Of a stretch of DNA of 64,000 nucleotides, positions 1-31,393 are shown in pieces. Each line of letters begins with the position of its first letter. Within the stretch, counting starts at the first letter, position 1. The notes under the pieces were generated by a model. That model did no database searches and was not told the DNA's origin. It saw nothing but the letters and a program-made list of their open reading frames with translations. The stretch spans positions 372,001 through 436,000 of the forward strand of contig JAZGTN010000176.1 of NCBI GenBank assembly GCA_037783415.1, written 5' to 3'. This DNA comes from Leptasterias polaris. Lineage: Eukaryota > Echinodermata > Asteroidea > Forcipulatida > Asteriidae. Both the position numbers and the translations under genes were made by a program.

Positions 1-2205
1 AAGGCTAATCTCCAATGCCCAATGCCCAAGGAGTCTATAACTGAAAAAAGTTTGGAAATCGGTTGTGTAACTCTTGAGATATGGTCCCACTTCCGGTTGA
101 CCCGGAAGTAAGGATCAACATGGGATCACGGTTACCCAAGGCTAATCTCCCATGCATAAGGAATCTAGTATAACTGAAAAAAGTTTGAAAAACAGTTGTG
201 TAGTTCTTGAGATTTGGTCTCACTTCCGGTTGACTCGGAAGTAAAGGTCCACATGGGGTCACGGTTACATAAGGCTAATCTCCAATGCCCAAGGAGTCTA
301 TAACTGAAAAAAGTTTGGAAATCGGTTGTGTAGTTCTTGAGATATGGTCCCACTTCCGGTTGACCCGGAAGTAAGGATCAACATGGGATCACGGTTACCC
401 AAGGCTAATCTCCCATGCATAAGGAATCTAGTATAACTGAAAAAAGTTTGAAAAACAGTTGTGTAGTTCTTGAGATTTGGTCTCACTTCCGGTTGACCCG
501 GAAGTAAAGGTCCACATGGGGTCACGGTTACATAACGCTAATCTCCAATGCCCAAGGAGTCTATAACTGAAAAAAGTTTGGAAATCGGTTGTGTAGTTCT
601 TGAGATATGGTCCCACTTCCGGTTGACCCATTAGTAAAGGTCAACATGGGGTCACAGTTACTCAAGGCTAATCTCCCTTGCCCAAGGAGTCTATAACTGA
701 AAAAAGTTTGAAAAACGGTTGTGTAGTTCTTGAGATTTGGTCCCACTTCCGGTTGACCTGGAAGTAAAGGTCAACATGGGGTCACGGTGACCCAAGGCTA
801 ATCTCCAATGCCCAATGCCCAATGCCCAAGGAGTCTATAACTGAAAAAAGTTTGGAAATCGGTTGTGTAACTCTTGAGATATGGTCCCACTTCCGGTTGA
901 CCCGGAAGTAAGGATCAACATGGGATCACGGTTACCCAAGGCTAATCTCCCATGCATAAGGAATCTAGTATAACTGAAAAAAGTTTGAAAAACAGTTGTG
1001 TAGTTCTTGAGATTTGGTCTCACTTCCGGTTGACTCGGAAGTAAAGGTCCACATGGGGTCACGGTTACATAAGGCTAATCTCCAATGCCCAAGGAGTCTA
1101 TAACTGAAAAAAGTTTGGAAATCGGTTGTGTAGTTCTTGAGATATGGTCCCACTTCCGGTTGACCCATTAGTAAAGGTCAACATGGGGTCACAGTTACTC
1201 AAGGCTAATCTCCCTTGCCCAAGGAGTCTATAACTGAAAAAAGTTTGAAAATCGGCTCTGTAATTCTTGAGATATGGTCCCACTTCCGGTTGACCCGGAA
1301 GTTAAGGTCAACATGGGGTCACAGTTACTCAAGGCTAATCTCCCTTGCCCAAGGAGTCTATAACTGAAAAAAGTTTGAAAAACGGTTGTGTAGTTCTTGA
1401 GATTTGGTCCCACTTCCGGTTGACCTGGAAGTAAAGGTCAACATGGGGTCACGGTGACCCAAGGCTAATCTCCAATGCCCAATGCCCAAGGAGTCTATAA
1501 CTGAAAAAAGTTTGGAAATCGGTTGTGTAACTCTTGAGATATGGTCCCACTTCCGGTTGACCCGGAAGTAAGGATCAACATGAGATCACGGTTACCCAAG
1601 GCTAATCTCCCATGCATAAGGAATCTAGTATAACTGAAAAAAGTTTGAAAAACAGTTGTGTAGTTCTTGAGATTTGGTCTCACTTCCGGTTGACCCGGAA
1701 TTAAGGTCCACATGGGGTCACGGTTACATAAGGCTAATCTCCAATGCCCAAGGAGTCTATAACTGAAAAAGGTTTGGAAATCTGTTGTGTAGTTCTTGAG
1801 ATATGGTCCCACTTCCGGTTGACCCATTAGTAAAGGTCAACATGGGGTCACAGTTACTCAAGGCTAATCTCCCTTGCCCAAGGAGTCTATAACTGAAAAA
1901 AGTTTGAAAATCGGCTCTGTAATTCTTGAGATATGGTCCCACTTCCGGTTGACCTGGAAGTTAAGGTCAACATGGGGTCACAGTTACCCAAGGCTAATCT
2001 CCCTTGCCCAAGGAGTCTATAACTGAAGAAAGTTTGAAAATCGGCTGTGTAATTCTTGAGATATGGTCCCACTTCCGGTTGACCCGGAAGTTAAGGTCAA
2101 CATGGGGTCACAGTTACTCAAGGCTAATCTCCCTTGCCCTAGGTATCTATAACTGAAAAAAAATTGAAAATCGGCTGTGTAATTCTTGAGATATGGTCCC
2201 ACTAA
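1..2205. repeat. 130-bp satellite array, about 17 monomers (unit U1)
   Basis: Tandem monomers of 129-144 bp, each recognisable by the start AAGGCTAATCTC, at about 2, 139, 270, 402, 535, 665, 795, 939, 1072, 1200, 1330, 1461, 1599, 1731, 1860, 1990 and 2120. The array is cut by the left window edge. Monomers fall into types by the words after CTAATCTC: CCAATGCCCAATGCCC, CCCATGCATA, CCAATGCCC and CCCTTGCCC. These recur in order, giving a higher-order repeat of roughly 670-790 bp. Each monomer also carries ACTTCCGGTTGACCCGGAAG followed by AAGGTCA and GGGTCA. All frames stay open for about 61 codons per monomer, but the period is not a multiple of three and the frame changes, so I do not call genes here. 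Confidence 0.97.
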
Positions 2206-4957
2206 TTAAATATTCACCTCGCTGTAAATGGGCTAATTAGTTAAGAATTAAAAAAAAAATACATTGAGAGTTAAGTTCATGTACTACTAAGCTTCAATTT
2301 GATATAGGATCTAACTCTTTCTTACTTTACGCTTAGGATATTAGGTCACATGCATGGTTGTGTAAACATTTTATTTTACTTGAAATTTTGTTTATGAAAC
2401 TGCTGTTACATGGGTCACCCACTGTTTCAGAAACGGTATGTTGACAAAAAATAACCGTGAATGCTCAGGCTTTACATGTACGTAAGCCTGTGACGGTTAC
2501 ACAGTTAAGTGACAGATCTTACGGTTAAACGTTCACATTTGTACGGTTCGGATAAACGTTGAAAAATTCACTTAAAAAGTGCCGTGTTATGCTGACCATA
2601 ATAACTGCGATCACGATTTTCACAGCACAATATATCCCATAAAACACACACACATATCATTCCCAATTTACAGACTCGTAGTCTTTGTTATTTCAATACA
2701 ACTGTGCGTACAGCAATTTGTGAGAAACATTAAACGCTAGGGGGCGTTCCACAACAATTCGATTGCGCAACATGCTCGCTTTTGCAGGTGCGCAAAGTCA
2801 AAATTCTGCAATAAAGAAGGAAGACACAATGTTTTTGATCACATGCTGGTTGTGTAACATGAAATGTTGTTTATGAAACTGCTGTTACACGAGTCATCAA
2901 CTGTTTCAGAATTACGGTTACACGTTTACAAAAAAATAACCGTGAATGCGCAGGCTTATACGTAAGCCTGTGACGGTTAAGTGACAGATCTTACGGTTAA
3001 ACGTTCACATTTGTACGGTTCGGATAAACGTTGAAAAATTCACTTGAAAAGTGCTGTGAAATGCTGACCATAATAATTGCCACACACACCTATATCATTT
3101 CAATACTTTATGTGCGGCATTAGTTGCAAGAAACATTGAACGCTAGAGGGCGTTCCACAACAAAGCGATTGCACGGTTACCCGGTTAACCAAACGATAAT
3201 CTTGTTAAACGTTTAAATGTTTACGTTTACGTTTAAATGCTGAGGCTTTGTAAGCCTGCCTGTGACGGTCACACGGTTAACCATCCGATCAACCGGTTAA
3301 ACATCTACATTATTACGGTTCGGATATGTTTAAAAATCAGCCTCAAAAAGTGTCGCGAAATTTTGACCATAATAAATGTGAACGGTTACACATGTAACTG
3401 ACCGTTTCAGAAATGATTACGAGTTTACTAAAAAATAACCGTAAATGCATGTAAACAAAATGATGTTGTATTTAAATCGTAATTGTAACAATTTTTCTAC
3501 CCTGAAATGCCAATCGAGTATGTTATATTTGTTTAGGCTAAAACAGTAAATTCATATGGGATACGATTGTATTGTAATTTTGTCTCTTCACACCCCCAAA
3601 TCCAACACTGACCGTTTAGCCATGGAAAAACTAATTTCTCTTTACCACACCTTTCCTCAATCAGCTCTTTTTATTGCTTTGCCTTAAGTTTACCTTGTTT
3701 GCAGTTTTCTATATTAAAAACACTATTGTTGTGTCTTTGTAACGATTAGTATGTTCTTGCTGGGCTAAAGTAGTAAATATGGGGTAAGGGTTTATTGTTA
3801 ATTTTTGTTCTTCACCCCCAAATCTAGCACTGACCGTTTAGCAAAGTAATTTCTCTTTTGGACACCTTTCCTCAATCAGCTCTTTTTATTGTTTATTGCA
3901 ACCGCCATCAAGTTTTGTAACTGATACATCGCGGTTTCCTGAAGTAATGCCTTTGCACAAGAAACTTTAAACATATCGTTTTCCGGCGAACGGGACCCAA
4001 GCGTAGACAAGTTTGCCAGGCCGAAAAAATCACCGAGAACGCGGCGCTCCGATTCTTTACGTCCACGCTGAAATCTGAATCGACGCTGCGCTGATACAAG
4101 ACAATTTCTTTTCGATTCTTGTGAATGAACATAGACTTGTGTCAGTCGGCGACAGGAATGATGACTCTATGTATATTCTAAAAAAACGGCAACAACACGG
4201 GTCATAAATGGGTTCAGGACTTTATCTTGTTTAAGAAATGCCAGAAAAAGCACCGTTAAACTCGAATAGCGCCCTAAAAGATTGAGGGCGCTATACGAGT
4301 TTAACGGTGCATTTTTAACTTTTTTTTTAAAGGTGAAAAATTTATACCTTGTCGTTAATAAACACATATCAAATTCTAGTCAGAGTACCCATGGCGTTCA
4401 ATTTGCCTGAGAATTTGGGTGGTTTTTTTCTAGTGACAATGTTTTAATAAGTTTTGATGCTTTTAAACTGATTGTCTATAAAACCTTTCTTGTTTTAAGA
4501 AACATTTGTGTAATCTAGGACGTTAAATTTGAGCTTATTTGAAAAAACTGTGTTTCTAGAAGTCGGATTTGTTTTCACTATCTCCATGTGTTTTGTACAC
4601 GGGCGAAAATGCACAATAAATGACGTCATTGTGACGTCGTTCCACATTTTAGGCCGAAAAGCACATCTACAGTACCCAAGAAGTCTAAAACTGAAAAAAT
4701 TTTGACGATCGGTCGTCTACTTTTTGAGATAGAGTGGTCTAAAGTCTGGCTAATTAAATATTCACCTCGCTGTAAAGTGGCTAATTAATTAAGAATTTAA
4801 AAAAAATTTACATTTAGAGTTAAGTTTATGTTCTAAGCTTCAATTTGATATATGATTTAACTCTTTCGTATTTGCGCTCTAGGATATTAGGCTTAAACAA
4901 AAAACGTGTGCAATTGCTATGGGATTTAGGTCAGAAACAAAGAATAATAATAACTAG
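2206..4957. repeat. Body of composite repeat unit U1
   Basis: No gene seen. The order of blocks recurs in U2-U6: an AT-rich block GGCTAATTAAATATTCACC at 2206-2345; blocks dense in CGGTTA (2410-3420) with the recurring stem CAGGCTTA/TAAGCCTG; a block containing CACCCCCAAATCCAACACTG (about 3560-3900, partly duplicated at 3690-3860); a block containing GTCAGTCGGCGACAGGAATG; and a closing block (4680-4957). The closing block repeats one satellite-monomer remnant plus the GGCTAATTAAATATTCACC block and ends in (AAT)n and AACTAG. The body is therefore flanked by related direct repeats of a few hundred bases. Confidence 0.9.
4250..4310. repeat. 26-bp-stem hairpin (MITE-like)
   Basis: GCACCGTTAAACTCGAATAG opens an arm of 26 bases matched at 25 of 26 positions by the reverse complement ending TTAACGGTGC, with a 9-base loop. 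U4 has a shortened version at 18759-18808. U2, U3, U5 and U6 keep only the right arm. It is probably a tiny inverted-repeat element or cruciform-prone site. Confidence 0.75.
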
Positions 4958-7675
4958 GGCTTAAGTGTTTGTCAACAAACACAGAGCTGTTCCTGTAATT
5001 TTCAAAGAGTTTAAAACTGAAAAGAAATTGAAAATCGGGTGTGTAGTTCTTGAGATATGGTCCCACTTCCGGTTGACCCGGAAGTAAAGGTCAACATGGG
5101 GTCACGGTTACCCAAGGCTAATCCCCCATGCCCAAGGAGTCTAAAACTGAAAACAGTTTGACAATCGGTTGTGTAGTTCTTGAGATATGGTCTTACTTCC
5201 GGTTGACCCGGAAGTAAAGGTCAACATGAGGTCACCGTTATCCAAGGTTGATATACAATGGCCAAGGAGTCTATAACTGAAAAAAGTTTGAAAATCGGCT
5301 GTGTAGTTCTTGAGATATGGTCCCACTTCCGGTTGACCCGGAAGTTAAGGTCAACATGGGGTCACAGTTACTCAAGGCTAATCTCCCTTGCCCTAGGAGT
5401 CTATAACTGAAAAAGTTTGAAAATCGGCTGTGTAATTCTTGAGATATGGTCCCACTAATTAAATATTCACCTCGCTGTAAATGGGCTAATTAATTAAGAA
5501 TTTAAACAAAAATTACATTGAGAGTTAAGTTCATGTACTAAGATTCAATATTGATATAGGATCTAACTCTTTCATATTTGTACGCTTTAGGATATTAGGG
5601 CACGGTTGTGTAAACACGTTTTTTTACTTGAAATTTTGTTTATGAAACTGCTGTTACACGGGTCACCAACTGTTTCAGAAACAGTATGTTGACCAAAATA
5701 ACCGTGGATGCTCAGGCTTATAGACCTACATAAGCCTGTGACGGTAACACGGTTAAGTGACAGATCTTACGGTTAAACGTTTACATTTGTACGGTTCGGA
5801 TAAACGTTGACAAATTCACTTAAAAAGTGCCGCGTAATGCTGACCATAATCTGTGATCACGGTTTTCACAGCACAATATCCCATAAAACACACACACATA
5901 TCATTCCAATTTACAGACTCGTAGTCTTTGATACATGTATTTCAATACAACTGTGCGTGCAGCAATATTTGTGAGAAACATTGAACGCTAGGGGGCGTTC
6001 CACAACAATTCGTGAATGCGCAGGCTTATACGTAAGCCTGTGACGGTTACACGGTTAAGTGACAGATCTTACGGTTAAACGTTCACATTTGTACGGTTCG
6101 GATAAACGTTGAAAAATTCACTTGAAAAGTGCTGCGAAATGCTGACCATAATAATTGCCACACACACCTATATCGTTTCCAATTTACAGGCTTAATTCTT
6201 CGTTATTTCATTACTTTGTGTGCGGCATTAGTTGAAAGAAACATTGAACGCTAGAGGGCGTTCCACAACAAATCGATTGCACGATTACCCGGTTAACCAA
6301 ACGATAATCCTGTTAAACGTTTAAATGTTTACGTTTACGTTTAAATGCTGAGGCTTTGTAAGCCTGCCTGTGACGGTCACACGGTTAACCATCCGATCAA
6401 CCAGTTAAACATCTACATTAATACAGTTCGGATAAATGTTTAAAAATCAGCCTCAAAAAGTGTTGCGAAATTTTGACCATAATAAATGCGAACGGTTACA
6501 CATGTAACTGACCGTTTCAGAAATGATTACGAGTTTACTAAAAAATAACTGTAAATGCATGTACACAAAATGATGTTGTATTTAAATCGTAATTGTAAAA
6601 AAAATTCTACCCTGAAATGCCAATCGAGTATGTTATATTTGTTTAGGCTAAAACAGTAAATTCATAATTATGGGATACGAGTGTATTGTAATTTTGTCTC
6701 TTCACACCCCCAAATCCAACACTGACCGTTTAGCCATGGAAAAACTAATTTCTCTTTACCACACCTTTCCTCAATCAGCTCTTTTTATTGCTTAAGTTAT
6801 TGCAACCGCCATCAAGTTTTGTAACTGATATATCGCGGTTTCCTGAAGTAATGCCTTTGCACAAGAAACTTTAAACATATGGTTTTCCGGCGAACGGGAC
6901 CCAAGCGCAGACAAGTCTTCCACCCGAAAACATCGCCAAGAACGCGGCGCTCTATTCTTTACGTCCACGCTGAAATCAGAATAACTATCTGATTACTCGA
7001 CAGATTGAGGACGCTATACGAGTTTAACGGTGCATTTTTTACTTTTTAAAAAAAGGAAAAAAAATACTCCTTGTCGTTAATAAACACATAATTCTAGTCA
7101 GAGTACCCATGGCGTTCAATTTGCCTGAGATTTTTTTTTTTTTTTCTACTGACAATGTTTTATTAAGTTTTGATGCTTTTAAACTGATTGTCTATAAAAC
7201 CTTTCTTGTTTTAAGAAATATTTGTGTAATCTAGGACGTTAAATTTGACCTTATTTGAAAAATTATGTCTCTAGAAGTCGGATTTGTTTTCACGATCTCA
7301 ATGTGTTTTGAACACGGGCTAAAACGTGCAATAAATGACGTAATTGTGACGTCGTTCCACATTTTTTGCCGGAAAGCACATCTACAGTATCCCAGAAGTC
7401 TAAAACTGAAAAAAGTTTGACGATCGGTCGTCTACTTTTAGAGATAGAGTGGTCTAAAGTCTGGCTAATTAAATATTCACCTCGCTGTAAAGTGGCTAAT
7501 TAATTAAGAATTTTAACATTTTTTACATTTAGAGTTAAGTTTATGTTCTAAGCTTCAATTTGATAAATGATTTAACTCTTTCGTATTTGTGCTCTAGGAT
7601 ATTAGGCTTAAACAAAAAACGTGTGCAATTGCTATGGGATTTAGGTCAGAAACAAAGAATAATAATAATAACTAG
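4958..7675. repeat. Composite repeat unit U2
   Basis: Opens with the palindrome GTGTTTGTCAACAAACAC (4965-4982), then about three and a half 130-bp monomers (4995-5455), then the AT-rich body, and ends in (AAT)n-AACTAG at 7675. It has the same block order as U1 but is the shortest copy (2.7 kb) because it has fewer monomers and only two CGGTTA-rich blocks. No gene seen. Confidence 0.9.
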
Positions 7676-10600
7676 ACATGAGGTGTTTGTGTACAAACAC
7701 GAAGCTGTTCCGGTTTTCTGATTCATAAACAAAATTTAACCCTTGTCTAACATTTACTGCTCAAATGGTTTATAACTGAAAAGAAATTGAATATCGGTTG
7801 TGTAGTTCTTGAGATGTGGTCTCACTTCCGGTTGACCTGGAAGTAAAGGTCAACATGGGGTCATGGTTACCCAAGGCTAATCTGCAATGCCTAAGGAGTC
7901 TATAACTGAAAAAAGTTTGAAAATCGGCTGTGTAACTCTTGAGATATGGTCCCACTTCCGGTTGACCCATAGGTAAAGGTCAACATGGGGTCACGGTTAC
8001 CCAAGGCTAGTCTTCAATGCCCCACGAGTCTATAACTGAAAAAAGTTTGAAAATCGGTTGTGTAATTCTTGAGATATGGTCCCACTTCCGGTTGACCCGG
8101 AAGTAAAGGTCAACATGGGGTCACGGTTACCAAGGCTAATATCCCATGGCCAAGGAGTCTAGAACTGAAAAATGTTTTAAAATCGGCTGTGTAGTTCTTG
8201 AAATATGGTCCCACTTCCGGTTGACCCGGAGGTAAAGGTCAACATGGGGTCACGGTTACCCAAGGCTTATCTGCAATGCCCAAGGAGTCTATAACTGAAA
8301 AAAGTTTGAAAATCGGTTATGTAGTTCTTGAGATATGGTCCCTTTTCCGGTTGACCCGGAAGTAAAGGTTTACATGAGGTCACGGTTATCCAAGGTTGAT
8401 CTACAATGCCCAAGGAGTCTATAACTACAAACAGTTTGAAAAACGATTGTGTAGTTCTTGAGATATGGTCCCACTTCCGGTTGACCCGGAAGTAAAGGTC
8501 AACATGGGTTCACGGTTACCCAAGGCTTTTCGAGATACAGTGATCTCAAGATTGGCTAATTAAATATTCACCTCACTGTAAATGGGCAAATTAATTCAGA
8601 ATAATAAAAAAAATTACATTGAGAGTTAAGCTCATGTACTAAGCTTCAATTTGATATAGGATCTAACTCTTTCATATTTGTACGCTTTAGGATATTAGGT
8701 CACATGCAAGGTTGTGTAAACAGGTTTTTTTTGCTTGAAATTTTGTTCATGAAACTGCTGTTACACGGGTCACCAACTGTTTCAGAAACGGTATGTTGAC
8801 CAAAAATAACCGTGAATGCTCAGGCTTATACATAAGCCTGTGACGGTTACACGGTTAAGTGACAGATCTTACGGTTAAACGTTTACATTTATTTGTATGG
8901 TTCGGATAAACGTTGAAAAAATCACTTAAAAAGTGCCGCGTAATGCTGACCATAATAACTGTGATCACGATTTTCACAGCACAATATCCCATAAAACACA
9001 CACATATCATTCCCAATTTACAGACTCATAGTCTTTGTTATTTCATTACATCTGTGCATGTAGCAATATTTGTGAGAAACATTGCACGCTAGGGGGCGTT
9101 CCACAACAATTCGTGAATGCGCAGGCTTATACGTAAGCCTGTGACGGTTACACGGTTAAGTGACAGATCTTATGGTTAAACGTTTACATTTATTTGTACG
9201 GTTCGGATAAACGTTGAAAAAATCACTTAAAAAGTGCCGCGTAATGCTGACCATAATAACTGTGATCACGATTTTCACAGCACAATATCCCATAAAACAC
9301 ACACTTATCATTCCCAATTTACAGACTCATAGTCTTTGTTATTTCATTACATCTGTGCGTGTAGCAATATTTGTGAGAAACATTGCCAGCTAGGGGGCGT
9401 TCCACAACAATTCGTGAATGCGCAGGCTTATACGTAAGCCTGTGACGGTTACACGGTTAAGTGACAGATCTTACGGTTAAACGTTCACATTTGTACGGTT
9501 CGGGTAAACGTTGAAAAAATCACTTGAAAAGTGCTGCGAAATGCTGACCATAATAACTGTGATCACGATTTTCACAGCACAATATCCCATAAAACACACA
9601 CATATCATTCCCAATTTACAGACTCATAGTCTTTGTTATTTCATTACATCTGTGCGTGTAGCAATATTTGTGAGAAACATTGCACGCTAGGGGGCGTTCC
9701 ACAACAATTCGTGAATGCGCAGGCTTATACGTAAGCCTGTGACGGTTACACGGTTAGGTGACAGATCTTATGGTTAAACGTTTACATTTATTTGTACGGT
9801 TCGGATAAACGTTGAAAAAATCACTTAAAAAGTGCCGAGTAATGCTGACCATAATAACTGTGATCACGATTTTCACAGCACAATATCCCATAAAACACAC
9901 ACTTATCATTCCCAATTTACAGACTCATAGTCTTTGTTATTTCATTACATCTGTGCGTGTAGCAATATTTGTGAGAAACATTGCCAGCTAGGGGGCGTTC
10001 CACAACAATTCGTGAATGCGCAGGCTTATACGTAAGCCTGTGACGGTTACACGGTTAAGTGACAGATCTTACGGTTAAACGTTCACATTTGTACGGTTCG
10101 GGTAAACGTTGAAAAAATCACTTGAAAAGTGCTGCGAAATGCTGACCATAATAACTGTGATCACGATTTTCACAGCACAATATCCCATAAAACACACACT
10201 TATCATTCCCAATTTACAGACTCATAGTCTTTGTTATTTCATTACATCTGTGCGTGTAGTAATATTTGTGAGAAACATTGCACGCTAGGGGGCGTTCTAC
10301 AACAATTCGTGAATGTGCAGGCTTATACGTAAGCCTGTGACGGTTACACGGTTAAGTGACAGATCTTATGGTTAAACGTTTACATTTATTTGTACGGTTC
10401 GGATAAACGTTGAAAAAATCACTTAAAAAGTGCCGCGTAATGCTGACCATAATAACTGTGATCACGATTTTCACAGCACAATATCCCATAAAACACACAC
10501 TTATCATTCCCAATTTACAGACTCATAGTCTTTGTTATTTCATTACATCTGTGCGTGTAGTAATATTTGTGAGAAACATTGCACGCTAGGGGGCGTTCCA

Positions 10601-12272: not shown

Positions 12273-12698
12273 AGCTAGAGATATAGAGGGCGCTGTTCAA
12301 GATGGCAGTTTGGTTTTTTTTTCTCTCTGATGTTTGGTTTTTAAAATCCATTTTAATCACATTTTCTGTGCGACATCCATCATCATTTGAACTGCTACTG
12401 GCTTTTTGAACATTCAAACATTGATGTGTGTGATATTTTGTCTTCAGCCGGCAAGTTATTCTCACCCTTTCTGTGATTTTTGTTCTGCACATTGAGGGCA
12501 TCAGATGTTACATGTATGACTTTGACTAGACCAACCCGGAAGTAAACTCTTATGCTAAACTTCAAGTCAGTTCAACAACGGTATGTCTCCTTGTATTCCT
12601 GTCTTGATTGGGAACCGGCCATCCTGTAATAACTTTCGTCATGTGGTTAGTATAATCATAACAATTTGATTCAAATACACTCAGAACAACATGTGCAA

Positions 12699-19001: not shown

Positions 19002-19040
<39 letters not shown>

Positions 19041-19223: not shown

Positions 19224-21868
19224 ACATTAGGTGTTTGTGAACAAACACAAAGCTGTTCCGTGTATTATTGTTTTGCTTAGATTAAGAGCTTCAAAGCTTT
19301 AAAGTTGGTCTGATGTCAAGATAGAAGAATATTGACCTTTGACAGGCCCTTTTTCACTTAAGTGTGCCTAAAAACCTAAACCTGGTCTTCATTCTGATAC
19401 TGAATCGAAAGGAGCTTTTAAACCAGAAATAAAGATCAACATGGGGTCATGGTAACCCTTGTCTAACATTAAATGTTCAAAGGGTATAAAACTGAAAAGA
19501 AATTGAAAATCGCGTGTGTAGTTCTTGAGATAGGGTCCCTCCGGTTGACCCACAAGTAAAGGTCACCATGGGGGCACAGTATTCCAAGGCTAATCTCCAA
19601 TGCCAAGGATTATATAACTGAAACAAGTTAAAAAATTGGTTGTATAGTTCTTGAGATATGGTCCCACTTCCGGTTGACCCAAAAGTAAAGGTCAACATGG
19701 GGTCACGGTTACCCAAGGCTAATCTCCCATGCAGAAGGATTCTACAACTGAAAAGTTTGAAAATCGGCTGTGTAACTCTTTAGATATGGTCCCACTTCCG
19801 GTTGCCCCATAGGTAAAGGTCAACATGGGGTCACGGTTACCCAAGGCTAATTTCCAATGCCCAAGGAGTCTATAACTGAAAAAAAGTTTGAAAATCGGTT
19901 GTGTAGTTCTTGAGATTTGGTCCCACTTCCGGTTGACCCAGAAGTAAAGGTCAACATGGGGTCACGGTAACCAAGGCTAATCTCCCATGCCCAAGGAGTC
20001 TATAACTGAAAAAAGTGTGAAAATCGATTGTGTAGTTCTTGAGATATGGTCCCACTTCCGGTTGACCTGGAAGTAAAGGTCAACATGGGGTCACGGTTAC
20101 CCAAGGCTAATCTCCAATGCACAAGGAGTCTATAACTGAAAAAAGTTTGAAAATCGGTTGTGTAGTTCTTCAGATATGGTCCCACTTCCGTTTGACCCGG
20201 AAGTTAAGGTCAACATAGGGTCACGGTTACCCAAGGCTTACCTTCAATGCCCAAGGAGTCTAAAACTGAAAAAAGTTTGACGATCGGGTGTATACTTTTC
20301 GAGATACAGTGGTCTCAAGATTGGCTAATCAAATATTCACCTCGCTGTAAATGGGCTGATTAAGAATTTAAAAAAAATTTACATTGAGAGTTAAGTTCAT
20401 GTACTAAGGTTTAATTTGATATCGGATCTAACTCTTTCATATTTTTATGCTTTAGGATATAAGATCACATGCACGGTAGTCTCGATTGGCGACGTTCATT
20501 TTTGTTTAACTTAGTGCGATATCGCAACACGAATTACTGTCCACAACACGAATTACTGGAGAAGAGATATCTGATCACACGCACATCTGGATCAAAACGA
20601 ACCAGATTTATAGACTTGACCAGTCCTTCTGAGTCAGCCTCCCAAACAGTCAATGTATTGGTGGCTAGTACAAAAAACAGCGTTGCCAATCAAGACTACA
20701 TGCATGGTTGTGTAAACAGTTTTTTTTCTTGAAATTTTGTTTATGAAACTGCTGTTACATGGGTCACCAACTGTTTCAGAAACGATATGTTGACAAAAAA
20801 TAACCGTGAATGCTCAGGCTTATACATGCACGTAAGCCTGTGACGGATACACAGTTAAGTGACAGATCTTAGGGTTAAACGTTCACATTTGAACGGTTCG
20901 GATAAACGTTGAAAAATTCACTTAAAAAGTGCTGTGTTATGCTGACCATAATAACTGCGATCACGATTTTCACAGCACAATATCCCATAAAACACACACA
21001 CATATCATTCCCAATTTACAGACTCGAAGTCGTAGTCTTTGTTATTTTAATACAACTGTGCGTGCAGCAATTTGTGAGAAACATTAAACGCTAGGGGGCG
21101 TTCCACAACAATTCGATTGCGCAACATGCTCGCTTTTGCAGGTGCGCAAAGTCAAAATTCTGCAATAAAGAAGGAAGACACAATGTTTTTGATCACATGC
21201 TGGTTTTGTAAACAGTTTTTTTTACATGAAATGTTGTTTATGAAACTGCTGTTACATGGGTCATCAACTGTTTCAGAATTACGGTTACACGTTTACAAAA
21301 AAATAACCGTGAATGCGCAGGCTTATACGTAAGCCTGTGACGGTTACACGGTTAAGTGACGGATCTTATGGTTAAACGTTCACATTTGTACGGTTCGGAT
21401 AAACGTTGAAAAATTCACTTGAAAAGTGCTGCGAATTGCTGACCATAATAATTATTGCCACACCTATATCGTTTCCAATTTACAGGCTTAATTCTTCGTT
21501 ATTTCATTACTTTGCGTGCGGCATTAGTTGCAAGAAACATTGAACGCTAGAGGGCGTTCCAAAACAAATCGATTGCACGGTTACCCGGTTAACCAAACGA
21601 TAATCTTGTTAATCGTTCAAATGTTAACAATTGGGATCAGCGTAAACAAATTCACTTGAAAAGTGCTGCGAAAATTGTGACTATTTAGTGTCAGAAAACA
21701 GTTACACGTTTAAAAAAAATATATGAGTGTGCAGGCTTATACGTAAGCCTGTGACAGTTACACGGTTAAGTGACAGATCATCCGGTTAATCGTTTACATT
21801 TGTACTGTTCGGATAAACGTTGAAAAGTGTTTTGTTAGTATAATATAGTCCCTAGGAAAAAAAAAACG

Positions 21869-22118
21869 CAGGGCCCAAATTTATGGCCAGCTTAATGCTG
21901 AATTCTGCGCTATGGGGTCACCATTCTCTGCTTAACGAGCAAGCAGCACAGAATTTCTGCACTAGCTGTGTAAGCGTAGAATGCCTAATGTTAACTACGC
22001 AAGCACACAAAATGCCATGCTAACCCGTGTAATACGCTTGACATAAGCACAGAATAACCTGCTTCAGTAAGCGCCGATCCTAAGCTTACGGTAAGCAGAG
22101 CCATAAAATTGGGCCCTG
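21869..22118. mobile_element. 250-bp hAT-like MITE, copy 1
   Basis: Starts CAGGGCCCAAATTTATGG and ends CCATAAAATTGGGCCCTG, a nearly perfect terminal inverted repeat with the CAGGG start common in hAT elements. Internal words such as TAGCTGTGTAAGCGTAGAAT and TTACGGTAAGCAGAGCCA recur in a second copy at 55650-55889. No clear 8-bp duplication is visible. It interrupts U5 relative to the other units. Confidence 0.8.
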
Positions 22119-23419
22119 ATGTATTTAGATTGATGTAAAAAAAAAAAATTTGTAAATATTGGTTGTTTCAGAAACTGTTTACCTTGTTTGCAGTTTTCTG
22201 TAATATATAAACATTATTGTTGTGTCTTTGTAACGATTAGTATGTTCTTGCTGGGCTATTGTTAATTTTTGTTCTTCACCCCCAAATCTAGCACTGACCG
22301 TTTAGCAAGGTAATTTCTCTGTTGTACACCTTTCCTCAATCAGCTCTTTTTATTATTTATTGCAACCGCCATCAAGTTTTGTAACTGATTCATCGCGGTT
22401 TACTGAAGTCATTCCTTTGCACAAGAAACATTAAACATATCGTTTTCCGGCGAACGAGACCCAAGCGCAGACAAGTTTGCCAGGCAAGAAAAATCGCCAA
22501 GAACGCGGCGCTCTATTCTTTACGTCCACGCTGAAAATTATCTGAATAACTATCTGATTACACGACTGCGCTGATAGCAAGACAAATTCCTTTCGATTTT
22601 TGTGAATGAACGTTGACTTGTGTCAGTCGGCGACAGGAATGATGACTCTATGTATATTCTACATAAACGTCAACAACACGGGTCATAAATGGGTTTAGGG
22701 CTTGAACGAATCTAGGAAACCCTAGAAAGATTGAGGGCGCTATACGAGTTTAACGGTGCGTTTTTTTTTACTTAAAAAAACAAGGGAACAAATTTACTCT
22801 GTCGTTAATAAACACATATCAAATTCAAGTCAGAGTACCCATGGCGTTCAATTTGCCTGAGAATTTTGGGGTTTTTTTCTACTGACAATGTTTTAATAAG
22901 TTTTGATGCTTTTAAACTGATTGTCTATAAAACCTTTCTTGTTTTAAGAAACATTTGTGTAATCTAGGACGTTAAATTTGAGCTTATTTGAAATATTATG
23001 TCTCTAGAAGTCGGATTTGTTTTCACGATCTCAATGTGTTTTGAACACGGGCTAAAACGCGCAATAAATGACGTAATTGTGACGTCGTTCCACATTTTTT
23101 GCCGGAAAGCACTACAGTATCCCAGAAGTCTAAAACTGAAAAACGTTTGACGATCGGTCGTCTACTTTTTGAGATAGAGTGGTCTAAAGTCTGGCTAATT
23201 AAATATTCACCTCGCTGTAAAGGGGCTAATTAATTAAGAATTTTAACATTTTTTACATTTAGAGTTAAGTTTATGTTCTAAGCTTCAATTTGATATATGA
23301 TTTAACTCTTTCGTATTTGCGCTCTAGGAAATTAGGCTTAAACAAAAAACGTGTGCAATTGCTATGGGATTTAGGTCAGAAACAAAGAATAATAATAATA
23401 ATAATAAAAATAATAATAA

Positions 23420-23543
23420 TCTCGACGAAAACAATAGCTGTTCCGACAGTAGGTCGGAACAGCTAATAATAATAATAATAATAAAAATAATAATAATCTC
23501 GACGAAAACAATAGCTGTTCCGACAGCTAGGTCGGAACAGCTA
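23420..23543. repeat. Hairpin minisatellite, 2 copies
   Basis: Two copies of the TCTCGACGAAAACAATAGC hairpin unit, separated by (AAT)n, just left of the R4/Dong-like insertion. Confidence 0.9.
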
Positions 23544-23971
23544 ATAATATAAATAATAATAATATAAATTATAATAATAATAATATGGCGGCGAGACAAG
23601 GAACACTGCTTCAGATCGGCTCTCGATTCTATAGAAGATAAATATTGTTTCCTGCTGTTTGTTTTGCACCAAAAGTTAACTCCTTGTTGGTACTACTTGG
23701 TAGACACCGCAGGGTAAGTTTGAAGGCAACTAGTCAACACCTTGTTGCTGTTTTTGGTGGAAAAAGATTGGATTTTTTCGTATTTGGAAAACTTTCTTCA
23801 ACGTAGACCGCACAGTGTGCATTGAATCAGTGAACAGACGCGCGCGTCACGTGCGTCCTTTGGAACATCTTGATTACAACCAGTGTTAAGTGGTCTCCGT
23901 AGGGGTGGATATTCTACAGCGTTGCTGTATGTAATTCTCCCTGAAACTACAAACTTTCTCACAATTGTGTG

Positions 23972-26900
23972 ATGTTTATAATGAGTGCTATGGAGCATCA
24001 AGTCAACGGTGAAAGAGTGACAAACTCCCAGAGAGGAAGTCCTTCACCCGATGTGGTTGGTATGCCTGAGCAGGTACCACCAGATCGTATCCAAACTGCT
24101 CACAACAGGATTCGTGTTGTAACCAGGAGAAAGTGGAGTAAGAACGATAATAAAATCGCAATGGAATGTTATATTAGGAGTGAGCCTGACAAGAGAGGAT
24201 ACAGAAGGAGGATGATTAGCCTTTGGCAAGATACAGGACTGTTTGAGATTAGCGAGCAGCGTCTTGCAGACCAGATAAGTACTATCAAACGGAACCAGTG
24301 GTTAACAAACGTGGAAATTGAGGAAATGAGGAGGATAGTGCAAGCTGATGGTGATAGAACGGATATTGTTAACCACCAAGTACCAGAGGAGGCGGCTGCT
24401 GCTAGCTCGCAGAGTGAGGATGAGGTGGATCAGCCTGGGTTGCGAGATGGTCAGAACGATGATGGCATCGACGAAGAGGAGGGCATAGAGTTTACGGAGG
24501 AAGAGGTGCAGATTACGACAAGGCTTAAGGAGGTGATGGAAGAAGCGAAAAGGTCAAACGGGTGGAGTACCCCAGCTTTGCGCTGGGTCCCAAGGAAAAG
24601 GCTGACAGAAATGTCAGCCTTGGTAAGTAATGTCCTGGGATCGGTAAGTACGGATAATATATCGGAAACTAACTGTCTTATTTTTGCAGGGGCAGTTGTA
24701 GTAGGGGAAATGTTAGGGGTGAAGGCGTCACAATCAAAACAAGACAACAGTACACCATGGTGGAAACGTCGGCTGGAGGGTCAAATTAAAGACTTGCGAA
24801 AAGATCTCAGTAGAATAGAACAAATGAACAAGGGTTTATTGAAAGATTCAGACTTGAGGAATACACTAATGACAAAGTACAATATCAAACGTAAGGGGGT
24901 AAGTGTTGTAATAGAGGAGATTAAGCAAAGAGTTAAGGCTAAGGCTGCAAAAGTGAAGAGGTATGACGACAGGGTAAGGCAATTTCACCAGAATAGGTTG
25001 TTTAACACCAATCAGCGTCAGTTGTTTAAGGAATTGGATGGAAAGGCTGACAGCACGCAGGCAGGCCCAAGACCAACTGAGGCCAAAACTTTCTGGGGTG
25101 GAATTTGGGACCAACCAGTACAGCACAACCGACAAGCGGAATGGCTAGCGGATGTGAAAGATGAATTGACAGGGGTACAACAGCAAGAAGGGTTCCAGAT
25201 TGACGTGGACAAGATAAAGAGACAGGTAAAGAAAGTACCAAATTGGAAAGCCCCGGGTCCGGACCATGTGCATGGGTACTGGTTGAAGAACTTCCGTAGT
25301 TTGCATGAGCGAATGGCCCTACAATTGCAAGACTGTCTAGTACAGGGTAAGGTCCCATCTTGGATGACTGAGGCAAAAACGGTTTTGATCATGAAGGATG
25401 TCAAGAAAGGTAACATTGCCAGTAATTATAGACCAATTACGTGCTTACCTGTCATGTATAAACTCTTGACCAGTATAATTGCAGAAGACCTCTATCGCCA
25501 TATGGATGACCAGCAGTTGTTTCCGGAGGAGCAGAAAGGCTGCAAGAAGCGGTCCAGAGGTACGAAGGATCAACTTATCATCGATAAGGCTGTACTAAAG
25601 GACTGCAGGGGCAGAAAGACTAATTTGGCAATGGCGTGGATCGACTACAAGAAGGCGTATGACATGGTATCGCACACATGGATAATGGAATGTCTGGATA
25701 TGGTTGGAGTGGCTGATGCAGTAAAATGTCTTCTAGGTGAGAGCATGAAGATGTGGCGGACAAATCTGACAGCCAACAACGAAGGTCTGGGCAAGGTATG
25801 GATAAGAAGAGGTATTTTCCAAGGTGACTCTCTGTCTCCATTGCTGTTTGTCCTTGCACTGATGCCACTGTCGATGATTCTGAGGAAGGTGAGTGCAGGT
25901 TATGTACTGAAGGACGGATGTAAGATCAACCATCTGCTTTTTATGGACGATTTGAAGTTGTTTGCAAAGAATGAGGCAGAGATAGATTCCTTGGTGCAGA
26001 CCGTCAGAATTTTCAGCGATGACATCGGGATGCAGTTCGGTCTGGAGAAATGTGCTTCAATGACCATGAAGAGGGGAAAGAGGGTACATTCCGATGGCAT
26101 CGCTCTGCCAGATGGTGCACAGATGAGGGCTTTGGGTGAGGAGGAGAGTTATCGGTATCTTGGTGTACTCGAATCAGACCATGTCCTTCACGAGGAGTCA
26201 AAGGTAAGGCTGAAGGCAGAATACATCAGACGGGTAAAGAAATGTTTGAAGTCTAAACTGAACGGGGGTAACATGATAAAGGCGATTAACACCTGGGCCG
26301 TGTCTTTGATGAGGTACAGTGGGGGTATTATCGAGTGGACTAAACAAGATCTAGATGTCGCTGATAGGAGGACAAGAAAACTCATGACCATGCATGGCAT
26401 GCTTCATCCGCGGTCAAATGTTAGTAGACTCTATCTTCCGAGGTCAGAGGGCGGAAGGGGATTGCTGAGCGTGGCGGACAGCGTTAACATCGAACGCAGG
26501 AGTTTGCAGTGTCATGTCGGGAGGTCCGAGGAGAGGTTGTTGAAAGCTGCGCAAAGATATACGAGGACAGACGAAGTTGGGCCAAAGGAGTACAAAAGGG
26601 TAATGAAAGAGGAAAGGCAACAGGATTGGAGGAATAAACCGCTTCATGGCCGATTCTTGAGATGCACTGAAGAAGTGGCGAGCGCCAAGTCCTGGAATTG
26701 GTTAAGGAGCGGAGAACTGAAGAAGGAAACCGAGGGCTTGATTACTGCGGCGCAAGACCAATCGCTAAGGACAAATGTAATGAAGGCAAGAATAGAGAAA
26801 GCAAACGTCTCTCCTATGTGTAGAATGTGTAATAAGGCTGAGGAGACTGTATTTCATATTGTCAGCGAATGTAGTAAGATGGCCCAGACGGAGTACAAAG

Positions 26901-27385
26901 GAAGACATGACAAGTTGGCCAAGGTGATCCACTGGGATCTGTGTAAGAAGTATGATGTCCATGTCACTGCGAAATGGTACGACCATGTACCGGAGAAAGT
27001 TATAGAGACCGACCAGGTCAAGATCCTCTGGGACTTTAACATTCAGACTGATCATGTTATAGAACATAGGCGTCCGGATGTTGTAGTCTTAGATAAGACG
27101 ACGAAGATGTGTCATCTCATTGACATAGCAGTGCCAGGTGACATAAGGGTAGCTTCGAAGGAGTTAGACAAGATCCAAAAGTACCAAGACCTGGCCAGGG
27201 AACTTCGTAAGATTTGGCAGGTGAAAGTGAAAGTAGTCCCTGTGGTGGTTGGAGCACTTGGCACCATTCCGAAAGCACTGGGGAAACATCTAGATGAAAT
27301 AGGTACAACTGTGAGGGTAGATCTGTTACAGAAGGCAGCACTTTTGGGAACAGCGAGAATCCTGAGAAAGACACTTGAGATCTAA
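23972..27385 (+). CDS. RLE-type LINE polyprotein: Myb-like domain, RT, CCHC, PD-D endonuclease
   Basis: About 1137 residues from the ATG at 23972; another ATG is at 23981. An N-terminal Myb-like region (residues 52-124, RRKWSKNDNKIAMECY ... NQWL) probably binds DNA. An acidic linker follows. The reverse transcriptase has NWKAPGPDHVHGYW, WIDYKKAYD (about 557), GIFQGDSLSPLLF and the catalytic FMDD (about 658). The C-terminal part has CRMCNKAEETVFHIVSEC (CX2CX8HX4C, about 950) and RPDVVVLDKTTKMCHLID (RPD at about 1035, matching the RPD-X12-14-D motif), the restriction-like nuclease of R2/R4-group elements. No stop or frameshift. No N-terminal C2H2 finger is seen, unlike R2. I am sure of the RLE class; the R4/Dong assignment also rests on the TAA target. 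Confidence 0.95.
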   Translation: MFIMSAMEHQVNGERVTNSQRGSPSPDVVGMPEQVPPDRIQTAHNRIRVVTRRKWSKNDNKIAMECYIRSEPDKRGYRRRMISLWQDTGLFEISEQRLADQISTIKRNQWLTNVEIEEMRRIVQADGDRTDIVNHQVPEEAAAASSQSEDEVDQPGLRDGQNDDGIDEEEGIEFTEEEVQITTRLKEVMEEAKRSNGWSTPALRWVPRKRLTEMSALVSNVLGSVSTDNISETNCLIFAGAVVVGEMLGVKASQSKQDNSTPWWKRRLEGQIKDLRKDLSRIEQMNKGLLKDSDLRNTLMTKYNIKRKGVSVVIEEIKQRVKAKAAKVKRYDDRVRQFHQNRLFNTNQRQLFKELDGKADSTQAGPRPTEAKTFWGGIWDQPVQHNRQAEWLADVKDELTGVQQQEGFQIDVDKIKRQVKKVPNWKAPGPDHVHGYWLKNFRSLHERMALQLQDCLVQGKVPSWMTEAKTVLIMKDVKKGNIASNYRPITCLPVMYKLLTSIIAEDLYRHMDDQQLFPEEQKGCKKRSRGTKDQLIIDKAVLKDCRGRKTNLAMAWIDYKKAYDMVSHTWIMECLDMVGVADAVKCLLGESMKMWRTNLTANNEGLGKVWIRRGIFQGDSLSPLLFVLALMPLSMILRKVSAGYVLKDGCKINHLLFMDDLKLFAKNEAEIDSLVQTVRIFSDDIGMQFGLEKCASMTMKRGKRVHSDGIALPDGAQMRALGEEESYRYLGVLESDHVLHEESKVRLKAEYIRRVKKCLKSKLNGGNMIKAINTWAVSLMRYSGGIIEWTKQDLDVADRRTRKLMTMHGMLHPRSNVSRLYLPRSEGGRGLLSVADSVNIERRSLQCHVGRSEERLLKAAQRYTRTDEVGPKEYKRVMKEERQQDWRNKPLHGRFLRCTEEVASAKSWNWLRSGELKKETEGLITAAQDQSLRTNVMKARIEKANVSPMCRMCNKAEETVFHIVSECSKMAQTEYKGRHDKLAKVIHWDLCKKYDVHVTAKWYDHVPEKVIETDQVKILWDFNIQTDHVIEHRRPDVVVLDKTTKMCHLIDIAVPGDIRVASKELDKIQKYQDLARELRKIWQVKVKVVPVVVGALGTIPKALGKHLDEIGTTVRVDLLQKAALLGTARILRKTLEI

Positions 27386-27469
27386 GGCTACGGGACGTAG
27401 CCCGACTCAAGGAGTTACCGGCACAAAAGAAAATGTGATCTTTCTTTTGTAGGCTGTGATGAAATGAAA
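27386..27469 (+). promoter_or_regulatory. 3' UTR stem-loops of the R4/Dong-like LINE
   Basis: Directly after the stop lies GGCTACGGGACGTAGCC, a 7-bp stem with a 3-base loop. A second stem pairs ACAAAAGAAA with TTTCTTTTGT around 27422-27450. LINE 3' UTR structures are often recognised by the encoded RT for priming, so these are candidates for that role. Confidence 0.6.
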
Positions 27470-27540
27470 TAATAAAAATAATAATAATCTCGACGAAAAC
27501 AATAGCTGTTCCGACTGCGTCAGGAACAGCTAATAACTAG
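27470..27540. repeat. Displaced tail of unit U5
   Basis: (AAT)n, one hairpin minisatellite (27488-27534) in the GACTGCGTCAGGAAC form, and AACTAG. This matches 19155-19223 closely and shows that the LINE entered the TAA tract of the unit end. Confidence 0.88.
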
Positions 27541-29790
27541 TCATTAGGTGTTTGTGAACAAACACAAAGCTGTTCCGTGTATTATTGTTTTGCTTAGATT
27601 AAGTGCTTCAAAGCTTTAAAGTTGGTCTGATGTCAAGATAGAAGAATATTGACCTTTGACAGGCCCTTTTTCACTTAAGTGTGCCTAAAAACCTAAACCT
27701 GGTCTTCATTCTGATACTGAATCGAAAGGAGCTTTTAAACCAGAAATAAAGGTCAACATGGGGTCATGGTAACCCTTGTCTAACATTAAATGTTCAAAGG
27801 GTATAAAACTGAAAAGAAATTGAAAATCGCGTGTGTAGTTCTTGAGATAGGGTCCCACTTCCGGTTGACCCACAAGTAAAGGTCAACATGGGGGCACGGT
27901 ATTCCAAGGCTAATATCCAATGCCAAGGATTATATAACTGAAACAAGTTTAAAAATTGGTTGTATAGTTCTTGAGATATGGTCCCACTTCCGTTTGACCC
28001 AAAAGTAAAGGTCAACATGGGGTCACGGTTACCCAAGGCTAATTTCCAATGCCCAAGGAGTCTATAACTGAAAAAAGGGTGAAAATCGATTGTGTAGTTC
28101 TTGAGATATGGTCCCACTTCCGGTTGACCTGGAAGTAAAGGTCAACATGGGGTCACGGTTACCCAAGGCTAATCTCCAATGCACAAGGAGTCTAACTGAA
28201 AAAAGTTTGAAAATCGGTTGTGTAGTTCTTCAGATATGGTCCCACTTCCGTTTGACCCGGAAGTTAAGGTCAACATGGGGTCACGGTTACCCAAGGATTA
28301 CCTTCAATGCCCAAGGAGTCTAAAACTGAAAAAAGTTTGACGATCGGGTGTATACTTTTCGAGATACAGTGGTCTCAAGATTGGCTAATCAAATATTCAC
28401 CTCGCTGTAAATGGGCTGATTAAGAATTTTAAAAAAATTTACATTGAGAGTTAAGTTCATGTACTAAGGTTTAATTTGATATCGGATCTAACTCTTTCAT
28501 ATTTTTATGCTTTAGGATATAAGGTCACATGCACGGTAGTCTCGATTGGCGACGTTCATTTTTGTTTAACTTAGTGCGATATCGCAACACGAATTACTGT
28601 CCACAACACGAATTACTGGAGAAGAGATATCTGATCACACGCACATCTGGATCAAAACGAACCAGATTTATAGACTTGACCAGTCCTTCTGAGTCAGCCT
28701 CCCAAACAGTCAATGTATTGGTGGCTAGTACAAAAAAACAGCGTTGCCAATCAAGACTACATGCATGGTTTTTTTTCTTGAAATTTTGTTTATGAAACTG
28801 CTGTTACATGGGTCACCAACTGTTTCAGAAACGATATGTTGACAAAAAATAACCATGAATGCTCAGGCTTATACATGTACATGCACGTAAGCCTGTGACG
28901 GTTACACAGTTAAGTGACAGATCTTAGGGTTAAACGTTCACATTTGAACGGTTCGGATAAACGTTGAAAAATTCACTTAAAAAGTGCCGTGTTATGCTGA
29001 CCATAATAACTGCGATCACGATTTTCACAGCACAATATCCCATAAAACACACACACATATCATTCCCAATTTACAGACTCGGAGTCGTAGTCTTTGTTAT
29101 TTCAATACAACTGTGCGTGCAGCAATTTGTGAGAAACATTAAAAGCTAGGGGGCGTTCCACAACAATTCGATTGCGCAACATGCTCGCTTTTGCAGGTGT
29201 GCAAAGTCAAAATTCTGCAATAAAGAAGGAAGACACAATGTTTTTGATCACATGCTGGTTGTGTAAACAGTTTTTTTTACATGAAATGTTGTTTATGAAA
29301 CTGCTGTTACATGGGTCATCAACTGTTTCAGAATTACGGTTACACGTTTACAAAAAATAACTGTGAATGCGCAGGCTTATACGTAAGCCTGTGACGGTTA
29401 CACGGTTAAGTGACGGATCTTACGGTTAAACGTTCACATTTGTACGGTTCGGATAAACGTTGAAAAATTCATTTGAAAAGTGCTGCGAAATGCTGACCAT
29501 AATAATTGCCACACACACCTATATCGTTTCCAATACTTTGTGTGCGGCATTAGTTGCAAGAAACATTGAACGCTAGAGGGCGTTCCACAACAAATCGATT
29601 GCACGGTTACTCGGTTAACCAAATGATAATCCTGTTAAACGTTTAAATGTTTACGTTTAAATGCTGAGGCTTTGTAAGCCTGCCTGTGACGGTCACACGG
29701 TTAACCATCCGATCAACCGGTTGAACATCTACATTATTACGGTTCGGATAAATGTTGAAAAATCATCCTCAAAAAGTGTCGCGAAATTTT

Positions 29791-29832
29791 GACCATAATA
29801 AATGTGAACAACCGTTCACATTTATTATGGTC
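29791..29832. repeat. 42-bp perfect palindrome (19-bp arms)
   Basis: GACCATAATAAATGTGAAC, four bases, then its exact reverse complement. In U1-U5 the same place reads GACCATAATAAATGTGAACG followed by GTTACACATGTAACTGACCG, so the right arm is new in U6. Confidence 0.95.
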
Positions 29833-31162
29833 GTTTCAGAAATTATTACGAGTTTACTAAAAATTAACTGTAAATGTATGTAAACAAAAATGATGTTGTA
29901 TTTAATTCGTAGTCGTAAAAATTGTTCTACCCTGAAATGCCAATCGAGTATGTTATATTTGTTTAGGCTAAAACAGTAAATTCATATGGGATACGATTGT
30001 ATTGTAATTTTGTCTCTTCCACAACCCCAAATCCAACACTGACCGTTTAGCCATGGAAAAACTAATTTCTCTTTACCACTCCTTTCCTCAATCAGCTTTT
30101 TATTGTCTTTGCAAGCGCCATCAAGTTTTGTAACTGATACATCGCGGTTTCCTGAAGTAATGCTTTGCACAAGAAATGTTAAACATATCGTTTTCCCGGC
30201 GAACGGGACCTAAGCGCATACAAGTTTGCCACCCCAAAACATGGACAAGAACACGGCACTCATATTCTTTACGTCCACGCTGAAATCTGAATAACTATCT
30301 GACTACACGACGACGACGCTGCGCTGATAGCAAGACAAATTCTTTTCGATTCGATCTTGTGAATGAACGTAGACTTGTGTCAGTCGGCGACAGGAATGAT
30401 GACTCTATGTATATTCTACATAAACGTCTACAACACGGGTCATAAATGGGTTTAGGGCTTGAACGAATCTAGGAAACCCTAGAAAGATTGAGGGCGCTAT
30501 ACGAGTTTAACGGTGCGTTTTTTTTTTACTTAAAAAAAAAGGGAAAAAATTTACTCTGTCGTTAATAAACACATATCAAATTCAAGTCAGAGTACCCATG
30601 GCGTTCAATTTGCCTGAGAATTTTGGGGGGTTTTTCTACTGACAATGTTTTAATAAGTTTTGATGCTTTTAAACTGATTGTCTCTAAAACCTTTCTTGTT
30701 TTAAGAAACATTTGTGTAATCTAGGACGTTAAATTTGAGCTTAATTGAAAAAACTGTGTTTCTAGAAGTCGGATTTGTTTTCACTATCTCCATGTGTTTT
30801 GTACACGGGCGAAAATGCGCAATAAATGACGTCATTGTGACGTCGTTCCACATTTTAGGCCGAAAAGCACATCTACAGTATCCCAGAAGTCTAAAACTAA
30901 AAAAAGTTTGACGATCGGTCGTCTACTTTTTGAGATAGAGTGGTCTAAAGTCTGGCTAATTAAATATTCACCTCGCTGTAAAGTGGCTAATTAATTAAGA
31001 ATTTTAAAAAAATTTACATTTAGAGTTAAGTTTATGTTCTAAGCTTCAATTTGATATATGATTTAACTCTTTCGTATTTGCGCTCTAGGATATTAGGCTT
31101 AAAGAAAAAAACGTGTGCAAATGCTATGGGATTTGAGTGGAAACAAAGAATAATAATAATAA

Positions 31163-31390
31163 TCTCGACGAAAACAATAGCTGTTCCGACAGCTAGGTCG
31201 GAACAGCTAATAATAATCTCGACGAAAACAATAGCTGTTCCGACAGCTAGGTCGGAACAGCTAATAATAAAAATAATAATAATCTCGACGAAAACAATAG
31301 CTGTTCCGACCTATGTCGGAACAGCTAATAAAAATAATAATAATCTTGACGAAAACAATAGCTGTTCCGACCTATGTCGGAACAGCTAAT
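31163..31390. repeat. Hairpin minisatellite, 4 copies
   Basis: Four copies of the TCTCGACGAAAACAATAGC unit (the fourth with TCTTGACG), separated by (TAA)n or (AAT)n. The first two have the AGCTAG loop and the last two a shorter CTAT loop, so copies appear to have spread in pairs. Confidence 0.9.
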
Positions 31391-31393
31391 AAC

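Follow-up and report, generated by a model that had tools for sequence, protein, structure and literature searches.

Non-coding elements of the HINE/DINE-1 kind, as characterised by Thomas et al. (2014, PMC4067079), carry a palindromic 5' subterminal inverted repeat (subTIR) with an inverted copy inside the 3' end, a palindrome near the 3' terminus, a microsatellite and central tandem repeats; they prefer TT, leave no clear target duplication, and are mentioned as occurring in clusters in the parts of that paper drawn on here. The corresponding parts of the report on Cg_HINE of the Pacific oyster (PMC7492417) describe a left flank of subTIR, inverted repeat and microsatellite, a central satellite-like array, and a right flank of subTIR and palindrome, and those of the report on Helitron2 of Fusarium and relatives (PMC5148889) describe terminal inverted repeats that are asymmetric, a hairpin at each end of some elements, and a single 3' terminus that combines with several 5' termini. 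For Metarhizium acridum, PMC5148889 also describes three Helitron2 copies in a row, whose authors leave open whether insertion into the 5' end or a rolling circle produced them. According to PMC4067079, sea urchin has Helentron proteins, and two further elements, Tsp from sea urchin (Cohen et al. 1985) and pearl from bivalves (Gaffney et al. 2003), are cited there as DINE-1-like. Satellites inside HINEs, Helitrons in tandem and self-insertion have each been published before; the literature examined held nothing combining Helitron, microsatellite and self-insertion, although that on tandem Helitrons is large and may contain an earlier account. The present study concerns an array of multi-kilobase units, U1-U6, in a 64,000-nucleotide stretch of the sea star Leptasterias polaris (the window, C176:372001-436000), analysed against the 630 Mb of the assembly in 334 contigs, with C-numbers denoting contigs and L-numbers other loci.

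The unit is probably a non-autonomous Helentron-type rolling-circle transposon (HINE, Helitron2 type) whose arrays arose by the history proposed below; the identity of the element is strongly supported, while the mechanism of array formation is what we infer. It shares with the three systems the structural features just listed and the preference for TT, and probably the lack of a clear target duplication, its 3' hairpin being recognised by sequence only. The 3' end is CTAG, whereas the consulted parts of PMC4067079 give CTRR for Helitrons and CTAG for a proto-Helentron, and head-to-tail arrays reach up to 11 listed left ends, unlike the HINE/DINE-1 elements treated there. Compared to Cg_HINE as presented in PMC7492417, the unit contains two internal repeats (130 and ~300 bp) and a body between the direct repeats R1 and R2, whole elements stand in tandem, and no 5' hairpin is present at the inner joints. 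Helitron2 differs in being fungal, in a target of TNAT/T for FoHeli1 and 2, and in that satellite arrays do not feature in the portion of PMC5148889 considered here. We regard the unit as a new family within a known class of elements; its signature of array building is unusually clear.

The termini carry this assignment. An earlier note, made from the sequence of the window, read the unit in the opposite direction: its "opening palindrome", together with CTAG, is the 3' end, and the hairpin next to (TAA)n forms the 5' end. Because CTAG is the 3' terminus, the AACTAG that had been taken to close each unit instead opens the following one, and an array followed in the direction of the element itself reads from right to left; isolated copies resolve this motif into an AA flank and the CTAG start of the next unit, and it is absent after U6. 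The 3' terminus (palindrome then AGCTGTTCC) has 1393 exact copies in the genome (723+670), against 0 for the control. Four ends are intact in the window, and in each the palindrome GTGTTTGTNNACAAACAC starts 11 nt from the terminus, within the HINE range of 8-35 bp. The subTIR AGCTGTTCCG lies at the right end and again ~31 bp from the CTAG end. The 5' hairpin motif occurs 965+847 times (control 0), and one copy folded whole gave -14.2 kcal/mol (z -8.6); among isolated copies, L084 and L086 are examples in which the TTA-rich stretch next to the hairpin is short or irregular. A 19-mer of the unit matched 806+718 times compared to 0 for its reversed-pattern control, which excludes chance. Open reading frames (ORFs) of at least 120 aa within 1-31393 all lie in or overlap two inserted retrotransposons, leaving the unit itself with none, and an Rfam search of the units for ribozymes or other RNAs returned, at the gathering threshold, only two tRNAs, both outside the array.

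Complete single copies in unrelated flanks were found at L029 (1.1 kb), L084 (1.3 kb), L085 (1.3 kb), L086 (1.4 kb), L088 (~3.8 kb, by eye without the monomer array) and L090, and at the right ends of dispersed copies the hairpin AGCTGTTCCGAC..GTCGGAACAGCT is followed by AA and then by unrelated DNA. These copies bear out the suggestion of a nonautonomous mobile element with internal satellites, standing in tandem, and speak against the macrosatellite that the earlier note had offered as the alternative; the class of the element had gone unrecognised there. That note had also proposed looking for isolated units with flanking duplications: the units exist, but duplications beyond AA or AAA do not, since the flanks of the six complete copies share AA in five cases, AAA in one, and nothing longer. 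The absence of any longer duplication points to rolling-circle transposition. Thirty distinct left ends were compared; eight were excluded as tandem, and all 22 of the remainder have AA at -1/-2 directly before CTA(G/T). After three more that adjoin another copy (L024, L034, L038) were dropped, AATAA occurred within 16 bp in 8 of 19 isolated left ends, compared to 6.8% of 6506 control sites (p 1.8e-5), and the flank was 54% A compared to 32%; the control, AA-preceded sites from one 32-kb stretch of the window, is only a rough yardstick.

Module mapping upheld the description of six units in one order and one orientation, occupying window positions 1-31387 (Table 1). The common order is left end, 130-bp monomers, R1, AT-rich stretch, ~300-bp blocks, body A-C, R2, closing block and TAA-rich stretch, and the terminal hairpin clusters also belong to the architecture. 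Architecture was less fixed than had been described: the order holds, but body block C and the beginning of R2 are missing from U4, U5 matches block A only in part and U2 gave no match to block B, so that repeat lines break differently in these three units, and two retrotransposons had gone unmentioned. The reported length range of 2.7 to more than 5 kb agrees with the 2.7 kb of U2 and the 5.4 kb of U1, which includes 489 bp beyond the window. Of the reported span of 1-31393, the right edge stands at ~31387, whereas the left edge is not the window start, because the array continues outward through U1 and a partial unit, U0, which joins U1 at C176:371512; left of U0 lies a gag-like fragment with a DUF1759 domain. 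The block is thus seven units piled up, six in the window and one fragment beside them. As previously described, the body lies between two related direct repeats; these keep their places, with a mean identity of 93% for R1-R1, 96% for R2-R2 and 87% for R1-R2, and they are old duplicates with fixed positions.

Table 1. Coordinates of array features in the window (strand of units and termini given in the transposon's own 5'->3' sense)
Feature	Position	Strand	Details
U1	1-4953	-	left 489 bp beyond window, starts C176:371512; 16 monomers of 130 bp matched at 48-2159, +2 beyond window
U2	4954-7671	-	3 monomers; 2.7 kb
U3	7672-12268	-	6 monomers; ~300-bp block array 8811-10607
U4	12269-19219	-	3 monomers; split by non-LTR insertion; without body block C
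U5	19220-27536	-	6 monomers; terminal hairpin cluster split by second non-LTR insertion
U6	27537-31387	-	4 monomers; last unit; four hairpins at end
R1 of U1	2202-2344	+	other R1 starts 5455, 8553, 16441, 20322, 28382
R2 of U1	4745-4890	+	other R2 starts 7460, 12054, 18834 (partial), 23190, 30951
3' terminus of U2	4954-4993	-	CTAG, palindrome GTGTTTGTNNACAAACAC (4965-4982), inner subTIR copy
Other 3' termini	7672, 19220, 27537		same terminus; U4 palindrome at 15944-15961
5' terminus of U6	31164-31387	-	four hairpins AGCTGTTCCGAC..GTCGGAACAGCT, differing loops, TAA-rich spacers
Other hairpin clusters	19051-19218, 23421-23546, 27489-27535		3, 2 and 1 hairpins
Hairpin-less joint U1/U2	4935-4957	.	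AAACAAAGAATAATAATAACTAG; similar at 7650-7675 (U2/U3), 12244-12272 (U3/U4), and U0/U1 beyond window
Non-LTR retrotransposon 1	12277-15940 (approximate)	+	ORF 12651-15521, endonuclease + reverse transcriptase domains; 3' (TTA)n tail
Non-LTR retrotransposon 2	23587-27468 (approximate)	+	ORF 23945-27385, reverse transcriptase domain; within (TAA)n

Arrays of this kind recur elsewhere in the genome. Among 100 listed left ends (of the 1393 3' ends; contigs C2-C15), 49 have another at a distance of up to 9 kb and fall into 15 clusters with 2, 3, 8 or 11 members, where ~2 close pairs would be expected by chance, and 51 have no such neighbour; in 33 of the 34 neighbouring pairs closer than 9 kb the strand is the same (p 2e-9). 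Joints between units take two forms. In the hairpin-less form the body ends on TAA and CTAG follows, as in 4 of the 6 joints of the present array (counting U0/U1) and 7 of the 8 in a nine-unit array on C2; the exact joint AAACAAAGAATAATAATAACTAG, with three TAA, has 53 copies on 32 contigs (control 0), and a comparable joint occurs in another subfamily (L024/L027/L036). Joints with hairpins are U4/U5, U5/U6, one of the 8 in C2, and those at L023 and L070. Hairpins number 3 after U4, 3 (2+1) after U5 and 4 after U6, and within these clusters each is preceded by a TAA-rich spacer and ATCTCGACG (once ATCTTGACG). The two parts of a divided TAA spacer are both represented, one in the hairpin-less joints and the other in the spacer-hairpin clusters. 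Nine right ends were judged isolated by eye, of which seven have one hairpin (L029, L071, L084, L085, L086, L088, L091), L090 has two and L089 three; right ends in arrays or ambiguous settings have two (L023, L054, L068, L070, L073), three (L001, L007) or ten (L002, L087). For these counts the automatic tandem/flank label was unreliable and was left unused, and stray left-end matches at L085, L087 and L090 were disregarded.

These junctions suggest how the arrays most likely formed. The element begins at its 5' end with TT-AGCTGTTCCGAC..GTCGGAACAGCT, the subTIR hairpin, followed by the (TTA)n microsatellite, and ends with CGGAACAGCT, the palindrome and CTAG-TT, the 130-bp and ~300-bp tandem repeats lying in its interior. 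It would be mobilised in trans by a Rep/helicase(/endonuclease) protein. New copies would prefer TAA-rich DNA, and the element itself holds such a stretch just inside its 5' hairpin. An asymmetric target would permit only one orientation, so that self-insertion would leave a hairpin-less head-to-tail joint on one side and stacked hairpins on the other, and unequal exchange could afterwards have multiplied or homogenised units in some arrays. It is possible, and proposed here only tentatively, that the TAA microsatellite between 5' hairpin and body is the element's own landing pad, in which case the element would seed its own macrosatellites, and its past insertions would be recorded in the stacked hairpins; because the landing-pad target is strand-asymmetric, each self-insertion would be head-to-tail. 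Within this one genome can be seen the probable route by which a rolling-circle transposon, dispersed at first, forms short head-to-tail arrays and finally homogenised blocks that resemble macrosatellites. The junction types can be counted and so offer a means of telling self-insertion from rolling-circle concatemers.

There are several alternative explanations for the arrays. A rather unlikely one keeps the element class but builds the array in one step, from a circular intermediate replicated past its end as a rolling circle and inserted as a concatemer, sometimes starting at TT in (TTA)n and not at the hairpin. Circles and precise head-to-tail joints have been reported for Helraiser in the parts of PMC4778049 consulted, and perfect-looking head-to-tail joints with a hairpin at L070 and L007, the identity of the hairpin-less joint in its 53 exact copies, and the similar joint of the other subfamily would all be in keeping with such an origin. 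Unless the concatemer is old, however, it is difficult to reconcile with the divergence of the units, whose right ends are 91-96% alike among the five comparable ones (U4 lacks the stretch) and whose left ends are of differing types. In the C2 array, by contrast, eight of nine right ends are 98-100% alike and one is at 94-95%, while the right end of U3 is 97-98% like seven of the nine C2 units, closer than to its own neighbours, which a one-step origin would not predict either. These identities imply local homogenisation in C2 and a mixture of lineages in the window array. In addition, U5 and U6 are 98-99% alike at the left end, R1 and the first block but 91-97% alike in body B and C, R2 and the closing block, a pattern that suggests exchange or conversion between them.

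Homogenisation of this kind, together with higher-order repeats inside the units, is also what a plain macrosatellite evolving by unequal crossing-over would display, with the dispersed copies as escaped fragments. This is very improbable, as the dispersed copies stop at exact common termini in unrelated flanks and not at random points, complete single units exist, and about half of the listed left ends stand without a neighbour. Repeated mis-joining of a single unit during assembly is hardly credible, given that the units differ by 4-9%, have unequal internal copy numbers and carry two different retrotransposon insertions, and that similar arrays lie on other contigs. Other classes of element were also considered. 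A canonical Helitron (Helitron1: 5' TC, 3' CTRR, insertion between A and T) would fit the 3' CTAG but not the 5' TTAGCTG and the AA/AA flanks, and a retrotransposon or DDE transposon was rejected in view of the lack of longer shared flanks and of long terminal inverted repeats.

Several observations weigh against the assignment to non-autonomous Helentrons or against self-insertion as proposed. The inner subTIR, ~31 bp from the 3' end, falls just outside the 38-60 bp of mite HINEs (parts of PMC4067079 consulted), and the 3' palindrome did not fold as single-stranded DNA above shuffled sequences in three copies (z -0.77 to -0.97). A 2-bp target duplication of AA is possible. Whole-array comparison covered two arrays, that of the window and that on C2, and therefore offers few data. 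Simple serial insertion would predict at least 5 hairpins in the cluster after U0-U4, which has 3, while U5 and U6, each a single unit, are followed by 3 and 4. A model of simple serial insertion alone, in which every element contributes one hairpin, was rejected on account of this cluster-by-cluster mismatch between hairpins and units. The totals (10 hairpins for 7 units with U0 included, 13 for 9 in C2) satisfy no more than the loose requirement that hairpins be at least as numerous as units, and some hairpins look locally duplicated, U6 holding two pairs by loop. As hairpin counts do not track unit counts, duplication, exchange or concatemers must act too.

An autonomous element with these termini was likewise not found among the loci examined, and no autonomous partner can be linked to the unit as it is for the HINEs of PMC4067079 in the parts consulted. 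Genome-wide profile searches gave 73 matches to PF14214 (Rep, Helitron_like_N) and 72 to PF05970 (helicase, PIF1), with an endonuclease (EN) domain at one locus. The termini of the element were absent around 15 Rep loci taken with 1.5 kb flanks. No matching 3' end lies in the 6 kb that follow the Rep-EN ORF on C37, which contain only one palindrome look-alike, with three mismatches and on the wrong strand for a 3' end; a 2-kb comparison shows C102 to be 99% like C37 in this region. Another kind of element, at L054, combines two 5' hairpins of the same type with a different interior, which recurs in 13 places (its own included) at 88-100% identity, on C75, C100 (four), C150, C184 (three, in two pieces), C192 and C241, and no Rep or helicase matches lie on the contigs with these 13 interiors. 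At L048, a Rep coding sequence runs straight into unit sequence (HINE monomers, R, block); this locus was rejected as a partner and is read as a chance fusion or insertion. The closest relatives of the Rep protein reach 76% at best, with 61% over 81% for Patiria miniata, 54% for Strongylocentrotus purpuratus, and ~50% for fish and molluscs. Helitron_like_N matches are concentrated on C58 (31 of 73) and C135 (9 of 73), some being pieces of one copy, and these contigs, which make up 1.5% and 0.3% of the genome, are also enriched in hairpin-less joints, with 7 and 4 of the 53; they may represent a transposon-rich or sex-linked region.

Elements of the Dong/R4 type favour TAA repeats, and the two window insertions may be of that type. 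Both insertions are non-long terminal repeat (non-LTR) retrotransposons that are foreign to the unit and inflate the length of the array, and neither recurs in another unit of the window. The first interrupts the left end of U4 directly behind CTAGAGCT, a similar end being unsplit in L017, and the second sits in the TAA-rich hairpin cluster that ends U5; Pfam identified no endonuclease domain in its ORF.

Some units also show internal expansion. In U3 the ~300-bp blocks are of two alternating types, the copies at 9112, 9710 and 10308 being 99% alike with a period of ~598 bp, which is a dimeric higher-order repeat within one transposon copy. Peaks of shared words across the window at 537 and 659-667 bp, assigned by eye to U1 (22-2203), suggest a higher-order expansion of the 130-bp monomers.

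Outside the array of transposons, a GC-rich unit of 22 bp (TTATCTGGCGGCCGCCACTTAA) forms two arrays (35212-35543 and 36467-36883) that lie in opposite orientation ~0.9 kb apart and resemble the arms of a foldback element; L032 matches this unit too. A minisatellite at 49722-50009 comprises 15.2 copies of a 19-bp unit with 100% matches and is readable as an open frame. A tRNA-Asn gene occupies 57046-57118, with a weaker tRNA match on the other strand at 56594-56664, and an ORF at 61370-62512, whose integrase-core and H2C2 matches fall slightly below the Pfam cut-offs, is probably a decayed long terminal repeat retrotransposon.

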